A DNA stretch of 53,178 nt, taken from positions 1-53,178 of the forward strand of contig NJBK01000018.1 in NCBI GenBank assembly GCA_005223035.1. Reading direction: 5' to 3'. Below the pieces are notes generated by a model that saw only the letters and a list, made by a program, of their open reading frames with translations, did not search any database and was not told the DNA's origin. The position numbers were made by a program, and so were the translations under genes. Shown here piece after piece: positions 44,264 through 53,178 of this stretch. Each line of letters opens with the position of its first letter. The stretch's first letter is position 1. The DNA is from Chloroflexi bacterium B3_Chlor (GTDB lineage Bacteria; Chloroflexota; Anaerolineae; UBA7937; B3-Chlor).

Positions 44264-45721
44264 TTGGCTACACCTGCCAAGAAAGGGGATCGTGACTGCG
44301 TCTTGCACGAGATCACTCGCAGTCTCTGCCCAGAGTGTGGCCGGGTTGTGGACGCCCAGGTGCTCATCCGCGACGGGAATGTCACTATGCGGAGGCGCTG
44401 CCCCCTCCACGGCTGGCACGAGGCATTGATCTCCTCTGACGCGGATTGGTACCTCAAGTCGCTCAAGTACGACAAGCCGGGAGCCATACCTCATCACTAC
44501 GCGACCAGCGTCCGAGAGGGCTGCCCCTTCGACTGTGGCCTGTGCCCCAAACACCAGCAACACACCTGCGTCGGCGTGATAGAGATCACCAACCGCTGCA
44601 ACTTAGAGTGTCCGACCTGCTTCGCTGATTCCGGCCTCGCTCGGTCGGACCGAGGCCATGACCTCAGCCTAGCCCAGGTGGAAGCGATCCTCGACCGGTT
44701 CCTGGAGACCGAAGGCCAGCCGGAGGTAGTCCAGATCAGTGGTGGTGAGCCAACCATCCACCCCCAACTCCTCGAGATTCTGGCGGCCGCCAAAGCGCGC
44801 GACATCCGCCACGTGATGCTCAACACTAACGGACTACGGCTGGCCCAGGATGCCGAGTTCGTTGACCGACTTGCGCATTACGAGCCCGTGATCTACCTGC
44901 AGTTCGACGGCCTGAGGGCGTCAACCTATGAAGAGCTTCGCGGCCTCGACCTACGGGCAGTGAAAGAGGAAGCCCTGGAGCACCTGGCCGAGGCCGGCCT
45001 TCACGCGATGTTGGTCCCCACCGTCGTTCGGGGAGTCAACGAGGACGAGATCGGGGACATCCTGCGCTTCGGGCTAAATCATCCTGCCGTGGTGGGCATC
45101 AATTACCAGCCGGTCACTTTCGCCGGACGATGCTTGAACCACCGCGACCCGTTCAATCGCATTACCCTGCCCGACGTGCTCCACGCCCTGGAAACTCAAA
45201 CCGAAGGTCTTTTTCAGGTTAGTGATTTCTTCCCCGTCCCTTGCCCCCACCCCACTTGCTCGGCGTGCACCTATGCCTTCCTGCACGGCGACGAGGTCAT
45301 CCCCATCCCGCGCACACTGAACGTGGACGACTACCTCGACTTCATCTCCAACCGCACTCTACCTGATCTGTCAGCCGAGATTGAGCCAGTCGTGGAGTCG
45401 CTGTGGAGCATGGCAGCGGTGATGGGCAGCGACAAGACGACCGACAACCTGGTGTGCGCCACCTGCGGTATCGAGGCGGCGATGAGCCTCGACCCCGAGC
45501 ATCTGAAAGAGCACTTCTTTGCCATTCAGGTGCACGGCTTCATGGATGAGCATAGTTTTGACCTAAAGCGGCTGATGAAGTGCTGCGTCCACCAACTTTT
45601 GCCTGACGGCCGTGCCGTGCCCTTCTGTGCCTACAACAACCTTGGCTACCGCGAGGAGGTCCGCGAGACCCTGGGTAAGACGGGGGTCTCGTGCCCCCAA
45701 CCCAAGGAGGTGTTGGCATAA
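44264..45721 (+). CDS. Radical SAM protein of the tetraether-synthase (Tes/MJ0619) type
   Basis: A multi-cluster radical SAM enzyme of about 485 residues. Early cysteines SLCPECG and RRRCPLHG (22, 25, 46) precede REGCPFDCGLCPKHQQHTC (87, 91, 94, 102). The radical SAM motif is CNLECPTC (112, 116, 119), followed by QISGGEPTIHPQLLEIL. A C-terminal set (HPTCSACTYAF, CATCGIE, LMKCCVHQLL, FCAYNN) would hold more clusters. This layout is that of archaeal Tes, which couples lipid tails into membrane-spanning tetraethers, and its bacterial relatives. TTG 44264 after GGAAGGAAAAGGG is the likely start. The methyltransferase gene starts on the last base of the stop codon. Confidence 0.82.
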   Translation: MATPAKKGDRDCVLHEITRSLCPECGRVVDAQVLIRDGNVTMRRRCPLHGWHEALISSDADWYLKSLKYDKPGAIPHHYATSVREGCPFDCGLCPKHQQHTCVGVIEITNRCNLECPTCFADSGLARSDRGHDLSLAQVEAILDRFLETEGQPEVVQISGGEPTIHPQLLEILAAAKARDIRHVMLNTNGLRLAQDAEFVDRLAHYEPVIYLQFDGLRASTYEELRGLDLRAVKEEALEHLAEAGLHAMLVPTVVRGVNEDEIGDILRFGLNHPAVVGINYQPVTFAGRCLNHRDPFNRITLPDVLHALETQTEGLFQVSDFFPVPCPHPTCSACTYAFLHGDEVIPIPRTLNVDDYLDFISNRTLPDLSAEIEPVVESLWSMAAVMGSDKTTDNLVCATCGIEAAMSLDPEHLKEHFFAIQVHGFMDEHSFDLKRLMKCCVHQLLPDGRAVPFCAYNNLGYREEVRETLGKTGVSCPQPKEVLA

Positions 45722-46659
45722 TGGACGAGGTAGAGAATCGCGAAATCAAACTCTGCTGCGCGACGTTCTACGAGAGCGACCTCGTGCGCATGCTGTTGGG
45801 AGATGTCCTGCATCCGGGGGGATTGGCCCTGACTGAACGCCTGGGGAGGCTCATGGGGCTCGGTCCGGACCAACGCGTCCTGGACGTGGCCTGCGGTCGC
45901 GGCGCGTCGGCCGTGCACCTGGCAGAGCGCTTTGGGTGCCACGTCACCGGCCTTGACTATGGAACAGAGAACGTCGCCGCAGCACAGGCTCTCGCCGCGG
46001 ACAGAGGAATCGCTCGTCTGACCGCCTTTCGCCAGGGCGACGCGGAAGCACTGCCCTTCGACGATGCTACGTTCGACGCCGTCATCTCCGAGTGCAGCTT
46101 CTGCACCTTCCCCGACAAGGCCACGGCTGCCACGGAGATGGCACGCGTGCTTCGCCCCGCCAGCAGGCTCGGTCTCGCCGACATCACTGTGAGCGGCACT
46201 CTGCCCGAAGACCTACAGACTCTGCTGGGCTGGGTGGCGTGCGTCGCAGGGGCAGGCACGCCAGAAGAGTACGTGGCAACCCTGGAGAAGGCCGGCTTCG
46301 CTCATTTCACCGTCGAAGACCAACGAGACGCCTTGCTGGAGATGGTGCAGGATGTGCGCCGGAAACTGCTGGCCGTGGAACTGGCCGTCGGGCTGGGCAA
46401 ACTGGACTTGGGCGAGCTCGACCTCAGCGAGGGCAAACGCCTGGCCCGCCGGGCGGTCGACCTCATCGAGAGCGGCGTGGTGGGCTATGGCTCGTTACGG
46501 CCAAATGCCGTTCGTAGGGGCAGGTTTGAAACCTGCCCCTACGCATGCGCTGAACGCACACTGCGCGCCGCGAGAAACCAGAAATCAGAATTCAGAAGAC
46601 AGGACTACTCAGGAGAGCCGGGGGAAACTACTACCCGAAACCCTATGACGACGCGATAG
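45721..46659 (+). CDS. SAM-dependent methyltransferase, C-terminus extended by a palindromic repeat
   Basis: A class I methyltransferase: motif I VLDVACGRGASAVHLAERFG with the SAM-binding loop, acidic LDYG, GDAEALPFDDATFD (motif II/III), SECSFCTFPD and VLRPASRLGLADI. An N-terminal KLCCATFYESD with adjacent cysteines is typical of a subgroup annotated variously as UbiE- or arsenite-methyltransferase-like. The natural protein probably ended near VGYGSLRPNA. From 46513 the frame runs through a palindromic repeat (reading RGRFETCPYACAE) and a further ~35 non-family residues, overlapping the convergent NTPase gene by 55 bases. It is coupled to the radical SAM gene, so I infer action in the same pathway. 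Confidence 0.8.
   Translation: MDEVENREIKLCCATFYESDLVRMLLGDVLHPGGLALTERLGRLMGLGPDQRVLDVACGRGASAVHLAERFGCHVTGLDYGTENVAAAQALAADRGIARLTAFRQGDAEALPFDDATFDAVISECSFCTFPDKATAATEMARVLRPASRLGLADITVSGTLPEDLQTLLGWVACVAGAGTPEEYVATLEKAGFAHFTVEDQRDALLEMVQDVRRKLLAVELAVGLGKLDLGELDLSEGKRLARRAVDLIESGVVGYGSLRPNAVRRGRFETCPYACAERTLRAARNQKSEFRRQDYSGEPGETTTRNPMTTR
46513..46543. repeat. Palindromic repeat, copy 1
   Basis: A perfect palindrome with 15-base arms around a single central base: CGTAGGGGCAGGTTT, then its complement. The same element, with the same right flank (GCATGCGCTGAA), occurs at 53026-53056. It is inserted in the 3' end of the methyltransferase gene and lies about 60 bases past the stop of the KAP-FGE gene. 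It looks like a dispersed MITE/REP-type element. Confidence 0.85.
46605..46640 (-). repeat. Shared 3' block next to the variable region (candidate IMH), copy 1
   Basis: The final 12 codons, from TTT CGG to the TAG stop, are identical base for base to 49588-49623. This is where the initiation-of-mutagenic-homing sequence lies in DGR target genes. Weaker similarity continues about 25 bases past the stop in both copies. Confidence 0.75.
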
Positions 46660-49169
46660 CCGGGAGCGTACCTGCTACGAACGGCACACCGGACGCTCCT
46701 AGGAGCGCCGTAGAACGCTCCACCGCGCACTACCCGGGGACCGTCAGCGTCCAGATCCTCGCACTCGTCGGGGTCGTAGGGATAATCCGCGTACAACGTG
46801 CTACACCATTCCCAGACATTGCCCGCCATGTCCAGACACCCGTAAGGGCTGGCGCCGGCTGGGAAACAGCCCACGCCGCTGGTAGTCCCAATGCCGGTGT
46901 CGTCGTAGTTCGCCCTGTTGTGATCAGGCTCGTTGCCCCAGGGATACAGGCCCTTGGGCCCGGGGTTCGGTATTGACACCAAACTCCTGCCGGGAGCGAG
47001 CGCTTCCTCAATGGTGCGAATAATGGGCTGCTCAGGTCTCTCCTGCCCACCTCTCGCGGCTTTCTCCCATTCTGCCTCGGAGGGTAAGGTTACCACGTAG
47101 CCCTCGGGCAATAGGTCCCGCCACCCCGCGGTGAGCCAGTCGCAGAAGTCCAGGGCCTCACGCCAACTCACCCACACCACCGGGTGGTTTGCCAGGCCCC
47201 GCAAGCTATCCTCATCACCCAGCTCATACGCTGTAGCCTTGACGAAGGCGCGGAACTGGGCCACTGTGACGGAATAGCGAGCCATCCAGTAGCCGTGAGC
47301 GACATTGACTTCGTCTAGCGGTTTCTCGTCCTCATATGCCATGGAGTCATCATCGTCGCTGCCCATCCAGAAGGGGCCGGGAGGGACGTAGCAGAACTCC
47401 ATCTCTTCCAGGCTGGTCACCTCCGGGTCTATCCCAGGCCGCGGGTCGCCCAGGAGGGCCAGCGCGCTCCCCGCTGAGGCTCGCTCTACAGGAGGGCGCG
47501 CCGACCGCATCACGCCCGGTAGATCCTTCGCGTAGACCTCCTTCTCCGCCTCGTCCAGTTCCGCCACCGCAGCACGGATCCTGGTGGGGTCGTTGCTCAT
47601 CAGGTCGGCACGGCGACGCTCGTCAATGTCCACCTCGACCTGGGCGGCCTCGGTGGTGGAGCGCGCCAGATAGATGTATTCTCTCAATTGGTCCAGCGAT
47701 AGATCACCAAACCAAGGGGGACCCACAGTCAGCATCCGCCCCAAGGCCCTGATGCGCCAGTACTTGTTTACCAATAGTAGCTCCACTGGGACCGCAGGTG
47801 GCTTGGGTACCTCGTTCAGTTCCTCCGACGCGGATTCTCGAGGCCCCGGCGTGCCGAGGGCCGGCATCGGCGGGCCTCCCTCAAGCCACGTCTTCTCAAG
47901 CTCCTGAAGCAGGTTGGGGTAGTCTTGGAGGTCGGTGAACAGCTCCCGCCAACGGCTTTGGATAATGACCATTTTCGCGAGCAGCGGTGGCTGCACCGGC
48001 TCCATCTCCTTCTCTTTGGCCCGCTGCTCGGCCAGCAGGAGCAGCAAGCGGAAGATGTTCAACGTGCGTTTGACCTTCCGCGGATTGGGTTCCACCCCCT
48101 GAGAGAAGATGGCGGCGCATCCCTCTGGCAACTGGGGTTCGTGCTCCTCGATGAACTTCTTCACGAGTCCCTCCCTCAAAGGAGGCAAGTGGAATGGGAG
48201 CTGCACGATCTTCTCTAGATAGTCATCGCCGGTGATGGGTAGTCGCCGCGCCAGCTCCTCGGCGCTCTCCTCCCCCCTCAGGCCAGCCAGGAAGCTCTTG
48301 TACCTCACCTGGATACCTCTCTCGATGACCTTGCGGTCCGCAGCGATGAGAAAGACACAGCCAGGCACATCGAGGAAGAGCTTGATCGCCTCCAGAACCT
48401 CGATGGCCTTCTCTGGCAGACAGCGGTCCAAATCGTCAACGAAGGCCACGAGCCGGCGGCCCTCCTTTTCCACATGCTCCTCAACGAGCTTCTGGAACTC
48501 CCCCTGGAACTTCTCCACCGAGCGGATGTGGTCACGGTGGACGTTGCGCCGTTCGCGCTGCACTGCGGTGAAGAGCGTGTCGAGGTCGTCGCCGCTCAGT
48601 TTCTCCTGGGCCTTCTCGGCCATCTTAGCCAGCGCTCCGCCGACGCCGGGGATCATGCTCAGCGAGAGGCGAGTCAACGAGCCGACGCCTCCCTTGACCA
48701 TCTTCTCCCAGTCGATGGTGACGCCGCCGATCTCCTCCCTCTCCACTTCCCGATAGAGGCTGGTCTCCAGGTCTTCCAGGTGGTGGCCGAGGTCCTGCTT
48801 GTCCTGTGGCAGCTCGTCAGGCGCCTTCTTAGCATCGTCCTTCCCCAAGAGCTTGTCCCGGAGCACACCCAATACTTGGAGGATAAGGGCGCGCCACAGG
48901 GCCTCCTCGCGATCGTAGCGCCAGGCGTTGAACCACACACTCCATACCTCGTTTTGCGCCGGCGCCCCCACTTCTTCCAGGGATTGCTGTACCAACCGCA
49001 TCAGGCTGCTCTTGCCGGATCCCCAGGGCCCAAAGACGCCGATGGTAAGGGGGGTGTCAGCTTCGAGGACAACCCGTCTCAGCGCCTCGCTGTAGGTCCG
49101 GAAGTTCAAGCGGTCGGCTTCAGGGGTTCCGATCTCTCGGTCACTCCACTTGGCAGATTCCGCTTCCAT
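46605..49169 (-). CDS. KAP-family P-loop NTPase fused to a DGR-type FGE-sulfatase (C-type lectin) domain
   Basis: 854 residues. The N-terminal KAP NTPase has Walker A GPWGSGKSS at 47-55, NAWRYDREEALWRALI and Walker B FVDDLDRCLPEKA at 243-255; KAP proteins act at membranes or in conflict systems. A middle region ends in a HEAT-like turn (ALALLGDPRPG). Residues 588-854 are a formylglycine-generating-enzyme-like domain (YVPPGPFWMGSDD, DMAGNVWEWC, RVVRGGAF, GFRVVV). The catalytic Cys pair of true FGE is not seen, so it is a binding domain. Residues 815-844 match the DGR variable region described separately. ATG 49169 follows AAGGAGG. It is a parallel of the NACHT gene upstream. Confidence 0.88.
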   Translation of the reverse strand: MEAESAKWSDREIGTPEADRLNFRTYSEALRRVVLEADTPLTIGVFGPWGSGKSSLMRLVQQSLEEVGAPAQNEVWSVWFNAWRYDREEALWRALILQVLGVLRDKLLGKDDAKKAPDELPQDKQDLGHHLEDLETSLYREVEREEIGGVTIDWEKMVKGGVGSLTRLSLSMIPGVGGALAKMAEKAQEKLSGDDLDTLFTAVQRERRNVHRDHIRSVEKFQGEFQKLVEEHVEKEGRRLVAFVDDLDRCLPEKAIEVLEAIKLFLDVPGCVFLIAADRKVIERGIQVRYKSFLAGLRGEESAEELARRLPITGDDYLEKIVQLPFHLPPLREGLVKKFIEEHEPQLPEGCAAIFSQGVEPNPRKVKRTLNIFRLLLLLAEQRAKEKEMEPVQPPLLAKMVIIQSRWRELFTDLQDYPNLLQELEKTWLEGGPPMPALGTPGPRESASEELNEVPKPPAVPVELLLVNKYWRIRALGRMLTVGPPWFGDLSLDQLREYIYLARSTTEAAQVEVDIDERRRADLMSNDPTRIRAAVAELDEAEKEVYAKDLPGVMRSARPPVERASAGSALALLGDPRPGIDPEVTSLEEMEFCYVPPGPFWMGSDDDDSMAYEDEKPLDEVNVAHGYWMARYSVTVAQFRAFVKATAYELGDEDSLRGLANHPVVWVSWREALDFCDWLTAGWRDLLPEGYVVTLPSEAEWEKAARGGQERPEQPIIRTIEEALAPGRSLVSIPNPGPKGLYPWGNEPDHNRANYDDTGIGTTSGVGCFPAGASPYGCLDMAGNVWEWCSTLYADYPYDPDECEDLDADGPRVVRGGAFYGAPRSVRCAVRSRYAPGYRVVIGFRVVVSPGSPE
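46638..46725 (-). other. Candidate DGR variable region, KAP-FGE gene
   Basis: From RGGAF to the constant F-R before the tail. Against the NACHT-FGE copy, 11 codons are replaced (TAC/TTC, GGC/AAC, GCT/TAT, AGC/TTC, GTT/TTT, AGC/CTC, TAC/GAC, GCT/TTT, TAT/CTT, GTC/CCC, GTC/CGC). All differ at positions 1 and/or 2; none differs at position 3. This is the expected product of adenine mutagenesis of AAC/AAT codons in a template repeat. Confidence 0.8.
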
Positions 49170-49332
49170 CCAATTCCTCCTTGCACCAGGGGTGCCCCGC
49201 CCCAGGCTTCAGGCCTGCGCCCTACCACAGGGAGCGGGGCTATTCTGTATTCGCCCGCTGCTGCGGGGCCTGTCCGCACCGGCGGCCGGGAACAGTTCCC
49301 ACCGGCCCTCTATTTGTCGGGCCTAGTTAATC
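49170..49332. other. Spacer between the RT fragment and the KAP-FGE gene
   Basis: No gene. It contains a hairpin CAGGC-TTCAG-GCCTG at 49203-49217 whose flanks resemble a decayed form of the 46513 palindrome. It also holds an inverted element around 49284-49310 with the inner palindrome GGGAACAGTTCCC. No template repeat is recognisable. Confidence 0.4.
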
Positions 49333-49479
49333 CTAGAAGCGGATCAGATTGCCGTCTAGATCGAACCCGAAGCTGGCCGCCGGTACCCTGCCCCTCTTCC
49401 CCTTCCGCGCCGCGCGATAGGCGGCGTACAGGTTGTCGAAAGCGCACACCTGGGGATAGAGATGGCGATATGTCTTCAT
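49333..49479 (-). pseudogene. N-terminal fragment of a DGR-type reverse transcriptase
   Basis: ATG 49479 preceded by GGGGGAAGG. The 48 residues begin MKTYRHLYPQVCAFDNLYAA, then YRAARKGKRGRVPAASFGFD and LDGNLIRF before a stop. This is the characteristic start of DGR and retron/group II-like reverse transcriptases (M-K-x-Y-x-x-L-Y-x-x-I-x-x-F-x-N-L, a Y-x-x-A-R-x-G-K-R block, and F-x-F-x-L-x-x-N-L). The polymerase domain with YxDD is missing. It lies about 110 bases after the NACHT-FGE stop, where DGR cassettes carry their RT. I infer a truncated cassette. Confidence 0.7.
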
Positions 49480-49587
49480 CAATGCCTTCCCCCCAGGCCT
49501 GCCTCGCGCAGCGCCAGCCCTGGGCCATGCCCCGAGGGGATGCAAGGCACCAACCAGAAGACACAAATCAGAACTCAGGAACCAGAA

Positions 49588-49623
49588 CTACTCAGGAGAG
49601 CCGGGGGAAACTACTACCCGAAA
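49588..49623 (-). repeat. Shared 3' block next to the variable region (candidate IMH), copy 2
   Basis: 36 bases identical to 46605-46640. A bulged GC hairpin (TGCCCC pairing with GGGG and GCA, 49528-49544) lies about 45 bases beyond the stop; some DGRs need a hairpin or cruciform downstream of the variable region. Confidence 0.7.
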
Positions 49624-52600
49624 CCAGAGACTGCGGGGGCGAAGGCCGGGAAAGTCCCTGAGGCGAAAGGCACAGCGGACGAACCTAGGATAGTTGAAGA
49701 ACGCCCCGCCACGCACCACCCGGGCGGCTTCGCCTTCGACGTCGCTATCGTCCGTATAATCCCGGTAACTCTCGTGCCACTTGGTCGCGCACCATTCCCA
49801 CACGTTCCCGCTGAGATCCTCCACTCCGTACGGACTGGCTCCACGCGGGAAGCACCCTACGGCACTGGTCGTGCCGATGCCCGCATCGCTGTAGTTGGCC
49901 CGCTCCGAATCTTCCTCATCCCCCCAGGGATAGCGACGCTGCGGCCTGGGGTTCTCGGCCAGTCTGCCGCCGTACGCACCGCCCAGGCCCTCTCCGGCCG
50001 CGACGATGAGGGGCGCAGTGGAGATTTCGAGGCCACCCCGTGCCGCCTTCTCCCACTCCTTCTCCGACGGCAGGCCCGCTGCCCACCCCTCCGGCAAAGC
50101 TCCCACCTCCTGCAGTTGCTGGGTCAACCACCGGGTGAAAGCCAGGGCCTCGTACCACGTGACGCCCACCACTGGATGGTTGGGCAGGCTCCACGGCTCT
50201 CCGTGGTCCATAGGTCCTCCGCGATCATCTCGGAACACCAAGCCGGCGCCGGTCCACCACTGGTCGGCCCAGTATCCCTCCGACTCCGCCACGAAAGCGC
50301 GGAACTGGGCATTGGTCACCGCGCAGCGGCCCATCCAGTAGCCATGCAGGACATCGACCTGGTGCGCAGGTTTCTCGTCGTCGTAGGCCAGCGGGTCATC
50401 GTCGCTTCCCATCCAGAAGGGCCCCGACGGTACGTAGCAGAACTGCATCTTCTCCAGAGTCGTCACCTCGGGCCGCGGGTCGCCCAGCTTGGCCAGAGCC
50501 CTCCCTGACGCGGCCCGCAACGGCGCTTTGATCTCTGCGTCTCCCAGGGCCTCCATGAGAGCCAGTACCACCTGCTGCCTGGAGGCGGCTGTTACCCCGC
50601 CCGGCGAGGCGTCTGCCATGGCTTCACCCATCAGCGCCAGTGCCTGTCCGTTCTCGCCAGGCCCTCTATCTACCAGCTCACCCACGACCGCGCTGGCCAC
50701 CTCGTCCCACTGCTGTACGATGCCCAGGTAGCCAATGGTCAGCAGGGCCACCTCCCGCCAGGCAGGGTCTCCCACGTGCTCCGCCAGGAGGTCCACGATG
50801 GGCCCGATGTCCCGCTGCCCCAGCCGCGCCACCCCCACCGCCGCCAGGTACTCCTCAAACGTGAGGTGGATGAAGCCGTACTGCCCCGCGCCCCGCTCCA
50901 GCAGCAACCCGGCGTACTCGTGTACGTCGTCCAGGAACTGCTGTACCGCCTGCTCGGGGTCCGCTTCCCCACGCTGACCGTAGATCTCGGCCAGCTTCCG
51001 GCTGACGTCTTGCTGCTTCACCAGCCCCACGCCGGGGCTGACTTCGTGCATCCACAGCGCCAGGGGCGCTAGGATGCGCAACGTCTCCACCACGTCCAGG
51101 TCACGCGCCGGGGGCCGCCCCAGTCCTCGCGCCCGGTTCCAGGAGGATAGCAACACCTCGATATACTTGTCGTACAACTCCACACGGCGGTCGGGCAACC
51201 TCACCCCCTGCCGTTTCATCAAGGCCAGGATGGTCAGCAAGAGCGGGTTCGCAGCCAACCCGCGCACGCCAGGGTTGCGGCCTATGGCGTCCAGCAACTC
51301 CCCTCGCTCCCGCTCGGCCTCTTCCTCAGCGAAGTCCGTCTCACCAATGGCGGCCCGTTCGATGGCAGCCGTCCATCTGTCCACGAAGGCCTCGATCTCC
51401 TCGTCGCCGAAGTCCACCAGTGTGCACTCCGCCAACCCCTCGGCAGTGGGCCGCACGTCCCGGTAGCCCACGATGCGGCTGGTGAGGGCGAACTTGTTGC
51501 CCGCCCGGCGGTGAAAGGCGCAGAAATCGACCACGCGCTTCACCACCGTCTCTCGGAGGCTCAACTCCCTCACCTCATCCAGCCCGTCGAGCAGCACAAG
51601 AGCGCCCCCCTGCTGGAGGGCCGCCTCCAGCATTTGGTCTATGGGGAACTCGGCCACACTTTCGCGGAAGTAATCACCGATGAAGTCGTCCAGCCGCACG
51701 TCGGCTTCGGCCAATGCGGTGGCGTAGGCAGACAGAGGCACCAGTACGGGAAGTCTCGGTCCCAGCCCCAGGTCCTCTCCCTCGCCCTGGGCCAGCTTGA
51801 GGGCCAGATACTTGAGGAAGGTTGTTTTGCCGGACCCCGGGTCCCCCAGGACTACCAATCCGTCCTGTTCCCGCAGCGCGTCGAGGACCGGCTGTGATTC
51901 GCCAAGGCGGCGAGCCAGGGCTTCTTGTTCCTCAACCCGGAGCTTGCGGCCGGCCAACCGCAATTCCTGAGGCCAGGTGTCGGCCTCCGGCACCTCGATG
52001 CGGGCCATGAGGGGTATGTACATCTCCAGGAGCGGTAGGCGCAAGGGTACCCGCTCGGAGATGCCCATGCCCTTGAAGTCCAGGTACTGGTAGCGGTCCA
52101 CCAGGTATTGCAGGTAGCGTTCGGTAACCTGGCGGAGGTCGGCCTCGGGCAGTTCGGGGGAGGTGAGTTGATTGACGATGTAGTTGACGTAGGTGATATA
52201 GACATCACCGGCAGGCATGAAGATCACGGACCCCGTCACACCTGCGAGTGTGGCGTTGAGTCGTGGAAAATCGGCCTGATAGGGCTGAAGCTCGCTTGCC
52301 AGTTGCGAGACGAACCAACGGCGATCCTCATCGGTCATATTCTCCTGGGCTGTCTCGATCACCTCCAGGTCCTTGAGAATGCCGTCTAGGTCTTCACGCA
52401 ATTCCGACCGATCAGCTGCGCCCGTCTCCAGATCCTTTCCTGCGCTGGCCTCATCGTTCCACCTCTGAATCCTGGTAAGAATGTGCTTGGCCCCCATTCC
52501 ACTGGCAATGCTTCCTAGCGTCAGCATTGCCGAGGAGAGGTCTCCCTGAGCTGCTTCGACCGCCAGGGGGAAGACGGTCATGCCGATCAGATAACCGAAC

Positions 52601-52704
52601 AGCGTCTGGGTTCCGGCGCGCTTCAGTTGTTCCCTGGGATTCTCTGCGAACCTGCCCAGTCGTTCCCGCAGCTGCTCCTTCCACCGTTCGAGGTCGAAGT
52701 CCAT
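49588..52704 (-). CDS. NACHT NTPase fused to a DGR-type FGE-sulfatase (C-type lectin) domain
   Basis: 1038 residues. Two N-terminal hydrophobic segments (residues 32-50 and 55-72) suggest membrane insertion. The NACHT STAND ATPase has Walker A GDPGSGKTT at 287-295 and Walker B LVLLDGLDEV at 369-378, then NPLLLTILALMKRQG and FIHLTFEEYLAA. A HEAT-like stretch at about 640-745 ends ALAKLGDPRPE. Residues 750-1038 form an FGE-like lectin-fold domain (YVPSGPFWMGSDDD, DLSGNVWEWC, RVVRGGAFF), again without the FGE catalytic cysteines. Residues 998-1028 are the candidate variable region. STAND proteins oligomerise when a sensor domain binds its target; bacterial NACHT proteins are known in anti-phage defence. 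Confidence 0.9.
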   Translation of the reverse strand: MDFDLERWKEQLRERLGRFAENPREQLKRAGTQTLFGYLIGMTVFPLAVEAAQGDLSSAMLTLGSIASGMGAKHILTRIQRWNDEASAGKDLETGAADRSELREDLDGILKDLEVIETAQENMTDEDRRWFVSQLASELQPYQADFPRLNATLAGVTGSVIFMPAGDVYITYVNYIVNQLTSPELPEADLRQVTERYLQYLVDRYQYLDFKGMGISERVPLRLPLLEMYIPLMARIEVPEADTWPQELRLAGRKLRVEEQEALARRLGESQPVLDALREQDGLVVLGDPGSGKTTFLKYLALKLAQGEGEDLGLGPRLPVLVPLSAYATALAEADVRLDDFIGDYFRESVAEFPIDQMLEAALQQGGALVLLDGLDEVRELSLRETVVKRVVDFCAFHRRAGNKFALTSRIVGYRDVRPTAEGLAECTLVDFGDEEIEAFVDRWTAAIERAAIGETDFAEEEAERERGELLDAIGRNPGVRGLAANPLLLTILALMKRQGVRLPDRRVELYDKYIEVLLSSWNRARGLGRPPARDLDVVETLRILAPLALWMHEVSPGVGLVKQQDVSRKLAEIYGQRGEADPEQAVQQFLDDVHEYAGLLLERGAGQYGFIHLTFEEYLAAVGVARLGQRDIGPIVDLLAEHVGDPAWREVALLTIGYLGIVQQWDEVASAVVGELVDRGPGENGQALALMGEAMADASPGGVTAASRQQVVLALMEALGDAEIKAPLRAASGRALAKLGDPRPEVTTLEKMQFCYVPSGPFWMGSDDDPLAYDDEKPAHQVDVLHGYWMGRCAVTNAQFRAFVAESEGYWADQWWTGAGLVFRDDRGGPMDHGEPWSLPNHPVVGVTWYEALAFTRWLTQQLQEVGALPEGWAAGLPSEKEWEKAARGGLEISTAPLIVAAGEGLGGAYGGRLAENPRPQRRYPWGDEEDSERANYSDAGIGTTSAVGCFPRGASPYGVEDLSGNVWEWCATKWHESYRDYTDDSDVEGEAARVVRGGAFFNYPRFVRCAFRLRDFPGLRPRSLWFRVVVSPGSPE
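49621..49711 (-). other. Candidate DGR variable region, NACHT-FGE gene
   Basis: The counterpart of 46638-46725, one codon longer near its end. It retains one AAC codon (49693-49695), the codon predicted for the template at all variable sites. Constant codons CCT AGG, TGT GCC and CCC GGC are shared exactly with the KAP copy, although the rest of the FGE domain differs at many silent positions. Confidence 0.8.
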
Positions 52705-52815: not shown

Positions 52816-53178
52816 CAGCAGTCGAAGTGACTGTGTTTGCCCTCCTTTCGTGCGATTGTCGAGTCGCGCCTGGGCTACGGAGAGGTGGTTGGCGCTACCC
52901 GCATCCTTCGATACGCTGCTCCACTCCGTTCCGCAGCTACTCAGGATGCTGTTTTCGACAAGTTGCTTCACTGCGGTGGGCACCTAGTCAGGATACTCAG
53001 GCGCATTCTGTCCCTTGACATCGCCCGTAGGGGCAGGTTTGAAACCTGCCCCTACGCATGCGCTGAAGCTACGAACGCCGTCACCCCGAACCTCGTTCTC
53101 CGTGTACCTGGCCCCACGGTTTTCAGAGCACGCGCGTTTGTAGTATAATCCCAAGCGTGGCTCGTATATATGTGTCTT
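52816..53178. other. Right-end intergenic region
   Basis: No recognisable gene. It contains palindromic repeat copy 2. An isolated TATAAT (53144-53149) on the plus strand may belong to a gene beyond the window, but no matching -35 is present. Confidence 0.4.
53026..53056. repeat. Palindromic repeat, copy 2
   Basis: The same perfect 31-base palindrome as at 46513-46543, followed by the same GCATGCGCTGAA flank, so the conserved unit is about 43 bases. The two copies bracket the KAP-FGE/NACHT-FGE pair. Confidence 0.85.

Follow-up and report, generated by a model that had tools for sequence, protein, structure and literature searches.

A truncated reverse transcriptase and heptad arrays beside two NTPase genes mark a likely extinct diversity-generating retroelement locus in a Chloroflexi bacterium

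Positions 1 to 53,178 of contig NJBK01000018.1 from Chloroflexi bacterium B3_Chlor (assembly GCA_005223035.1; class Anaerolineae) form the window analyzed here, which contains two neighboring NTPase genes that resemble targets of a diversity-generating retroelement (DGR) and, between them, the beginning of a reverse transcriptase (RT) gene. Gene A (46605–49169, minus strand) encodes an 854-aa KAP NTPase (Pfam KAP_NTPase, e value 7.8e-34) and gene B (49588–52704, minus strand) a 1,038-aa NACHT NTPase (Pfam NACHT, e value 1.4e-10). Each protein ends in a single FGE domain (FGE-sulfatase, e values 7e-46 in A and 2.6e-48 in B) of the C-type-lectin (CLec)/FGE fold, and in this architecture the genes match known DGR targets, as the original prediction had held in calling the site a classic target location. 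Codon pattern and an adenine test delimit a variable region (VR) in each gene, at codons 820–843 of A (46641–46712, minus strand) and, with the additional help of a homologue comparison, at codons 1003–1027 of B (49624–49698, minus strand). Both VRs are followed by a constant 3′ end that includes the stop codon and is identical in the two genes (46605–46640 in A and 49588–49623 in B, minus strand); from their position we take these ends to be like the initiation of mutagenic homing (IMH) site. Directly behind them, also on the minus strand, lie arrays of TTCTG heptads (46572–46604 behind A and 49555–49587 behind B), and behind the array of A there is a hairpin with a 14-bp stem (46513–46543). 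The RT stub, detected by RT homology search and translation, lies at 49333–49479 on the minus strand and consists of 48 codons that are homologous to the N-terminal part of DGR RTs and are followed by stop codons.

The two VRs differ from each other almost exclusively at first and second codon positions. In the eleven substituted codons, with the one-codon gap placed as the earlier reader must have placed it to obtain that number, the differences fall on 10 first, 9 second, and no third positions, which reproduces the original count of 19 of 22 first and second and 0 of 11 third positions. The recount also returned the 16 of 25 differing third positions claimed for the region upstream, where they belong to the 25-codon segment beginning YDDTGIGTTS; when this segment is moved by 1 to 4 codons, 17, 18, and 18 third positions differ. 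The identical end of both genes proved to extend over 37 nt, made up of the last 11 codons, the stop codon, and one further base. An independent alignment with a 26-codon VR contains 13 codons that are changed at position 1 or 2, two of which are also changed at position 3, whereas upstream of the VR in the same alignment 76 of the 103 changed codons are also changed at position 3 (Fisher p = 7e-5).

In the adenine test, for which a template repeat (TR) from a relative served as the sole reference, B mismatches the template at 22 of 29 adenines and at 8 of 43 other sites, and A at 20 of 28 adenines and at 10 of 41 other sites. Relatives within the class have template/variable pairs in the same domain whose mismatches are limited to adenines. 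An orthologue is identical to B at 239 of 261 residues before the VR and at 9 of 26 within it. Among 120 homologues, residues that cannot be encoded by NNY fill 21 of the 1,311 cells in the eleven variable columns versus 485 of 2,281 in control columns. It is therefore very likely that the variable C-terminal residues of A and B were written by a DGR, with strong support for adenine-directed writing from templates rich in AAY. The accompanying claim that both genes are targets of one retroelement is unproven, because A and B differ by a one-codon indel and at non-adenine sites in the 3′ end of the VR as well as by two silent CGN differences; the indel and the non-adenine sites imply that the template existed in at least two versions or changed over time.

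The DGR RT of a class relative (G026), searched against eight genomes, gave a single match, at 49324–49482 between B and A. The stub comprises 48 residues starting from MKTYRHLYPQ, and two in-frame stop codons stand directly after residue 48. Its best full-length match is P0213 (71% over 48 residues), and a Pfam search of the stub returned no family. All 120 RTs compared match the stub, and 113 of them carry GxxxSQ; because they are the best 120 of 7,448 RTs, chosen by their N-terminal likeness to the RT of locus L050, this agreement is to be read as homology and not as an unbiased vote. A search with the stub alone yielded seven short proteins of 34–84 aa (P0241–P0247), several of which may be N-terminal RT stubs, and some of which may have been cut by contig ends.

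According to the original prediction, a full RT and a template repeat were to be sought elsewhere in the genome. What emerged was the stub, which that prediction had not mentioned, whereas neither an intact RT nor a template was found in the assembly, which comprises 2.82 Mb in 73 contigs and is 85% complete: it contains no PF00078 match at an e value of 10, and with the VR as query it returns only A, B, and six short chance matches. When the template of G025 served as a second query, again only short matches emerged in the assembly, a result that says little because A and B themselves were missed. No further long copy of the sequence beyond the stub junction exists in the assembly.

The comparison of loci covered 44 NACHT-FGE loci, namely 40 hand-picked stretches together with G025, G038, G002, and the window. 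An RT match of at least 900 nt is present in 13 of them, a shorter match in five (the window included), and none in 26; a template, called at 80% or more adenine mismatches, accompanies all 13 long RTs, none of the five short ones, and one of the 26 RT-less loci. Where the target is followed on its own strand by an RT that starts within 200 nt (L116, L130, L134, L050, L051, L053, and L059), the template lies behind the RT, so that one deletion could remove both the RT core and the template. Truncated RTs recur elsewhere: G038 keeps about 52 residues, G132 only an N-terminal stretch between two FGE genes, G186 only the C-terminal end, and G367 lacks the core. The pairing of KAP and NACHT genes recurs in G002, a 91% complete genome in which no RT was found and whose two target stretches contain no stub. 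Because the constant tails of its two genes differ at 5 of 9 third positions, whereas those of A and B are identical, the sequences suggest that the loss would be older in G002 and recent in the present genome.

Some further loci deserve mention. In L143 (G019:C368), a template repeat lies 199–308 nt behind the target and the stretch contains no RT match, making it an orphan template. L017 and L031 (G007:C164) are two RVT_1 matches in open frames of equal length (825 aa) and may represent one protein with two RT domains. According to precomputed domains, a NACHT-FGE/KAP-FGE pair is also found on one JGI contig of 16,746 bp (P0003 and P0024), and in P0003 a SIR2-like PF13289 domain precedes NACHT.

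The arrays stand directly after the stop codons of A and B as TTCTG units at 7-nt spacing (six places at up to two mismatches, 0.09 expected). A three-unit pattern with at most one mismatch occurs at five places in the assembly, all of them at A and B, with no match of the reversed control; in G002 it occurs at three places, two of them behind NACHT-FGE genes, with one reversed-control match. At the 13 loci that have both RT and template, YTCTG units average 3.85 per 70 nt behind the VR, compared with 0.15 both behind the template and behind 309 other open reading frame (ORF) ends, and three or more units are found behind 10 of 13 VRs, 0 of 13 templates, and 4 of 309 other ORF ends. With a looser unit and a spacing of 7–9 nt, and with four RT-less loci whose flanks are shorter than 100 nt left out, chains of at least three units are present at 13 of 13 intact, 18 of 22 RT-less, and 4 of 5 partial loci versus 25 of 8,504 background windows. 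For 34 flanks, of which three were shifted manually, the lag-7 autocorrelation is 0.457 versus 0.262.

From the flanks of relatives we built a five-unit CTCTG pattern with spacings of 7, 9, 7, and 8 nt, which gave 55 matches in 37 of 396 genomes of the class and one match of the reversed control; it has no match in the present genome or in G002. Thirty of the 55 matches were checked, 11 on contigs already seen in the pattern-building set and 19 new, and 29 of these are located between −60 and +90 nt relative to the point where an FGE ORF ends, while the remaining one (L179) is 58 nt away from the end of its contig and is preceded by a GFR-type ending. The distance from the FR codon to the start of the array, which could be determined by a GGN-TTY-CGN/AGR rule for 30 of 39 distinct arrays, is 24–38 nt (standard deviation 4.0), whereas the distance from the FR codon to the stop codon is 21–51 nt and once 141 nt (standard deviation 21), with the stop lying before, inside, or behind the array. 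Because the former is nearly constant while the stop varies, the array is bound to the VR and not to the ORF end. In viral contigs the CTCTG pattern has one match, whose forward frames yielded no FGE domain. Of the targets in 14 named records, eight are followed by chains of at least three units, including those of Viridilinea mediisalina, Oscillochloris, and a metagenome-assembled genome of the planctomycete Candidatus Anammoximicrobium, and no such chain was found behind the targets of the other six (L149 and L157–L161). By eye, a different heptad, GTGAYGA, is repeated at the array position in L157 and L158 (Candidatus Viridilinea halotolerans).

The TTCTG heptad was tried as a class-wide marker and rejected because it is generic in many genomes and control patterns match as well. 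At up to three mismatches, TTCTG with 7-nt spacing is found in 109 of 396 genomes, together with many reversed-control matches, and an FGE ORF precedes only 5 of 30 places that were fetched. Dispersed 7-nt repeats (TTCTGAC, TTCTGCM, and others) occur in both orientations, in some genomes at dozens of places.

Behind the array, 14 of 20 flanks have a stem of at least 8 bp versus 83 of 2,420 windows. The hairpin behind the array of A sits where relatives have a DGR stem-loop; it is a 31-base repeat, with identical copies at 46513–46543 and 53026–53056 and a matching flank on one side. On the opposite strand, a methyltransferase ORF (45691–46659, plus strand) overlaps the 3′ end of gene A, and its last codons run antisense across the hairpin repeat, the heptad array, and the constant tail of A. 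In the DGR of Bordetella phage BPP-1, according to the available portion of its description (PMC3240598), a stem-loop lies directly behind the VR, whereas in the relatives studied here a heptad array comes first and is often followed by a stem-loop, and B has none. By analogy with the BPP-1 stem-loop, the array behind each VR is likely part of the target site and would mark the VR, not the TR, for homing. We lean toward a broader proposal, in which DGRs of this class mark their targets with a five-unit heptad array that lies 24–38 nt behind the last constant FR codon and ahead of a stem-loop and that is absent behind templates; such a mark would license any gene carrying it as a local or remote target, make transfer one-way, and persist on orphaned sensors.

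Taken as a whole, we hold with good confidence that a DGR wrote the variable residues of A and B and that the element has likely died at this locus, because only a 48-codon stub lies between the genes and neither a template nor an intact RT was found in the 85% complete assembly; it may well be dead in the whole genome. The ancestral locus would have lined up a NACHT-FGE target, then an RT, then a template repeat, and last a KAP-FGE target. An AAY-rich template would have been reverse transcribed with randomization of its adenines, and the resulting cDNA would have taken the place of the 3′ end in each target. A later event, presumably a single deletion, would have removed the template together with the core of the RT, so that the beginning of the RT remained along with the written VRs, the common constant 3′ end, and the heptad arrays. 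The FGE/CLec fold of the predicted NLR-like sensors would bind a ligand through its variable face, with specificities that would now be frozen.

Several observations weigh against this account. A and B have no one exact common template, P0003 contrasts less with B than the orthologue does (190 of 261 identical residues before the VR and 15 of 26 within it), and the 120 RTs were preselected for likeness. B is without the stem-loop that is common behind the targets of relatives (best stem 4 bp), and the 14-bp stem of A belongs to a dispersed repeat. The missing part of the assembly could also harbor an RT and a template, and A and B might then still be diversified in trans, or the locus might be intact as a structural variant in other cells; the identical constant tails of A and B point to recent writing, and the accessible text on degenerate loci in Thiohalocapsa (PMC10907252) describes both activity in trans and structural variants with an intact RT. 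We nonetheless think continued diversification unlikely, if quite conceivable, given that the assembly has no PF00078 match of any kind and no third VR copy beyond the chance matches, that the more complete G002 is likewise without a detected RT, and that B has no stem-loop. That the truncated RT reflects faulty assembly or binning is very improbable: contig ends less than 500 nt from the VR in 7 of 44 loci do indicate that such repeats trouble assemblies, but the two in-frame stops directly after residue 48, the single copy of the sequence beyond the junction, and the comparable truncations in G038, G132, G186, and G367 speak for a genuine truncation.

With no DGR involved, gene conversion could have homogenized the 3′ ends and strong positive selection could then have acted on surface residues; this would account for the concerted resemblance between A and B across the 3′ end and the array. 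Selection would not, however, shun K, Q, E, M, and W at exactly the variable columns, nor spare the third positions of changed codons, and the adenine-limited template/variable pairs of class relatives are found in the same domain; we give this explanation almost no credence. It is doubtful, too, that the heptad arrays are no more than short repeats that have come to lie behind genes incidentally and play no part in DGR homing. Such a view draws on the dispersal of 7-nt TTCTG repeats in 109 genomes, with up to 158 places in one and reversed-control matches besides, on the few fetched places preceded by an FGE gene, and on targets without an array (L128, L135, and L136 and the six named records), but it has to contend with the confinement of all five three-unit places of the present genome to A and B, with the position of the CTCTG pattern behind FGE genes in 29 of 30 checked places, and with the presence of arrays behind VRs and not TRs at 24–38 nt from the FR codon wherever the stop codon lies.

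Precomputed Pfam domains reveal other N-terminal domains in homologues of A and B, PF13289 in P0003 and PF00149 in P0032, P0036, and others, and this variety fits what is expected of NLR-like sensors with exchangeable effectors, which A and B may be. PADLOC reports QatA-, PDC-S20-, and PifA-like matches for gene A and no match for gene B, and Rfam and TRF searches returned no match. A BFVD search gave four matches at an e value of 0.001 or less, two of which carry names, one being a phage FGE-like protein and the other a T7-type tail fiber. An initial AlphaFold run from 20 sequences was poor (pLDDT 35.5) and was not used.

As far as the available sections of Dore et al. 2024 (PMC10907252) go, clade 5D DGRs of multicellular bacteria have two CLec targets with NACHT, nSTAND1, and sometimes KAP NTPases, and include degenerate loci with missing or pseudogenized parts as well as diversification in trans. 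In architecture the present locus is like them, with two targets that each have a central NTPase and a single C-terminal CLec domain, and it is unlike them in having a 48-codon RT stub between the targets, a heptad array behind each, and no intact RT or template that could be found. Treponema denticola TvpA differs in that its solved chain (PDB 2y3c) has no NTPase fusion. FGS-domain conflict systems (eLife 2020, PMC7159879), in the portion of that work at hand, also place a DGR-linked FGE/FGS domain in a predicted conflict system, but mostly as vWA fusions in cyanobacteria, whereas here FGE is fused to NACHT and KAP. The available parts of PMC3521204, PMC7517822, PMC8144416, PMC10053308, PMC12875486, PMC4372165, and PMC8867640, some of which name the IMH and stem-loops, contain no mention that we found of a periodic array behind the VR, and we found no published account of one in the open-licence literature searched, supplements aside.

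DGR-diversified NTPase proteins are a candidate bacterial counterpart to hypermutated immune receptors, and the locus described here would be a written repertoire that has outlived its machinery and that lends itself to dating and to comparison with intact relatives. As a sequence tag that needs no nearby RT, the heptad array is useful for finding remote or orphan targets, and it is a testable candidate for how homing distinguishes the VR from the TR.
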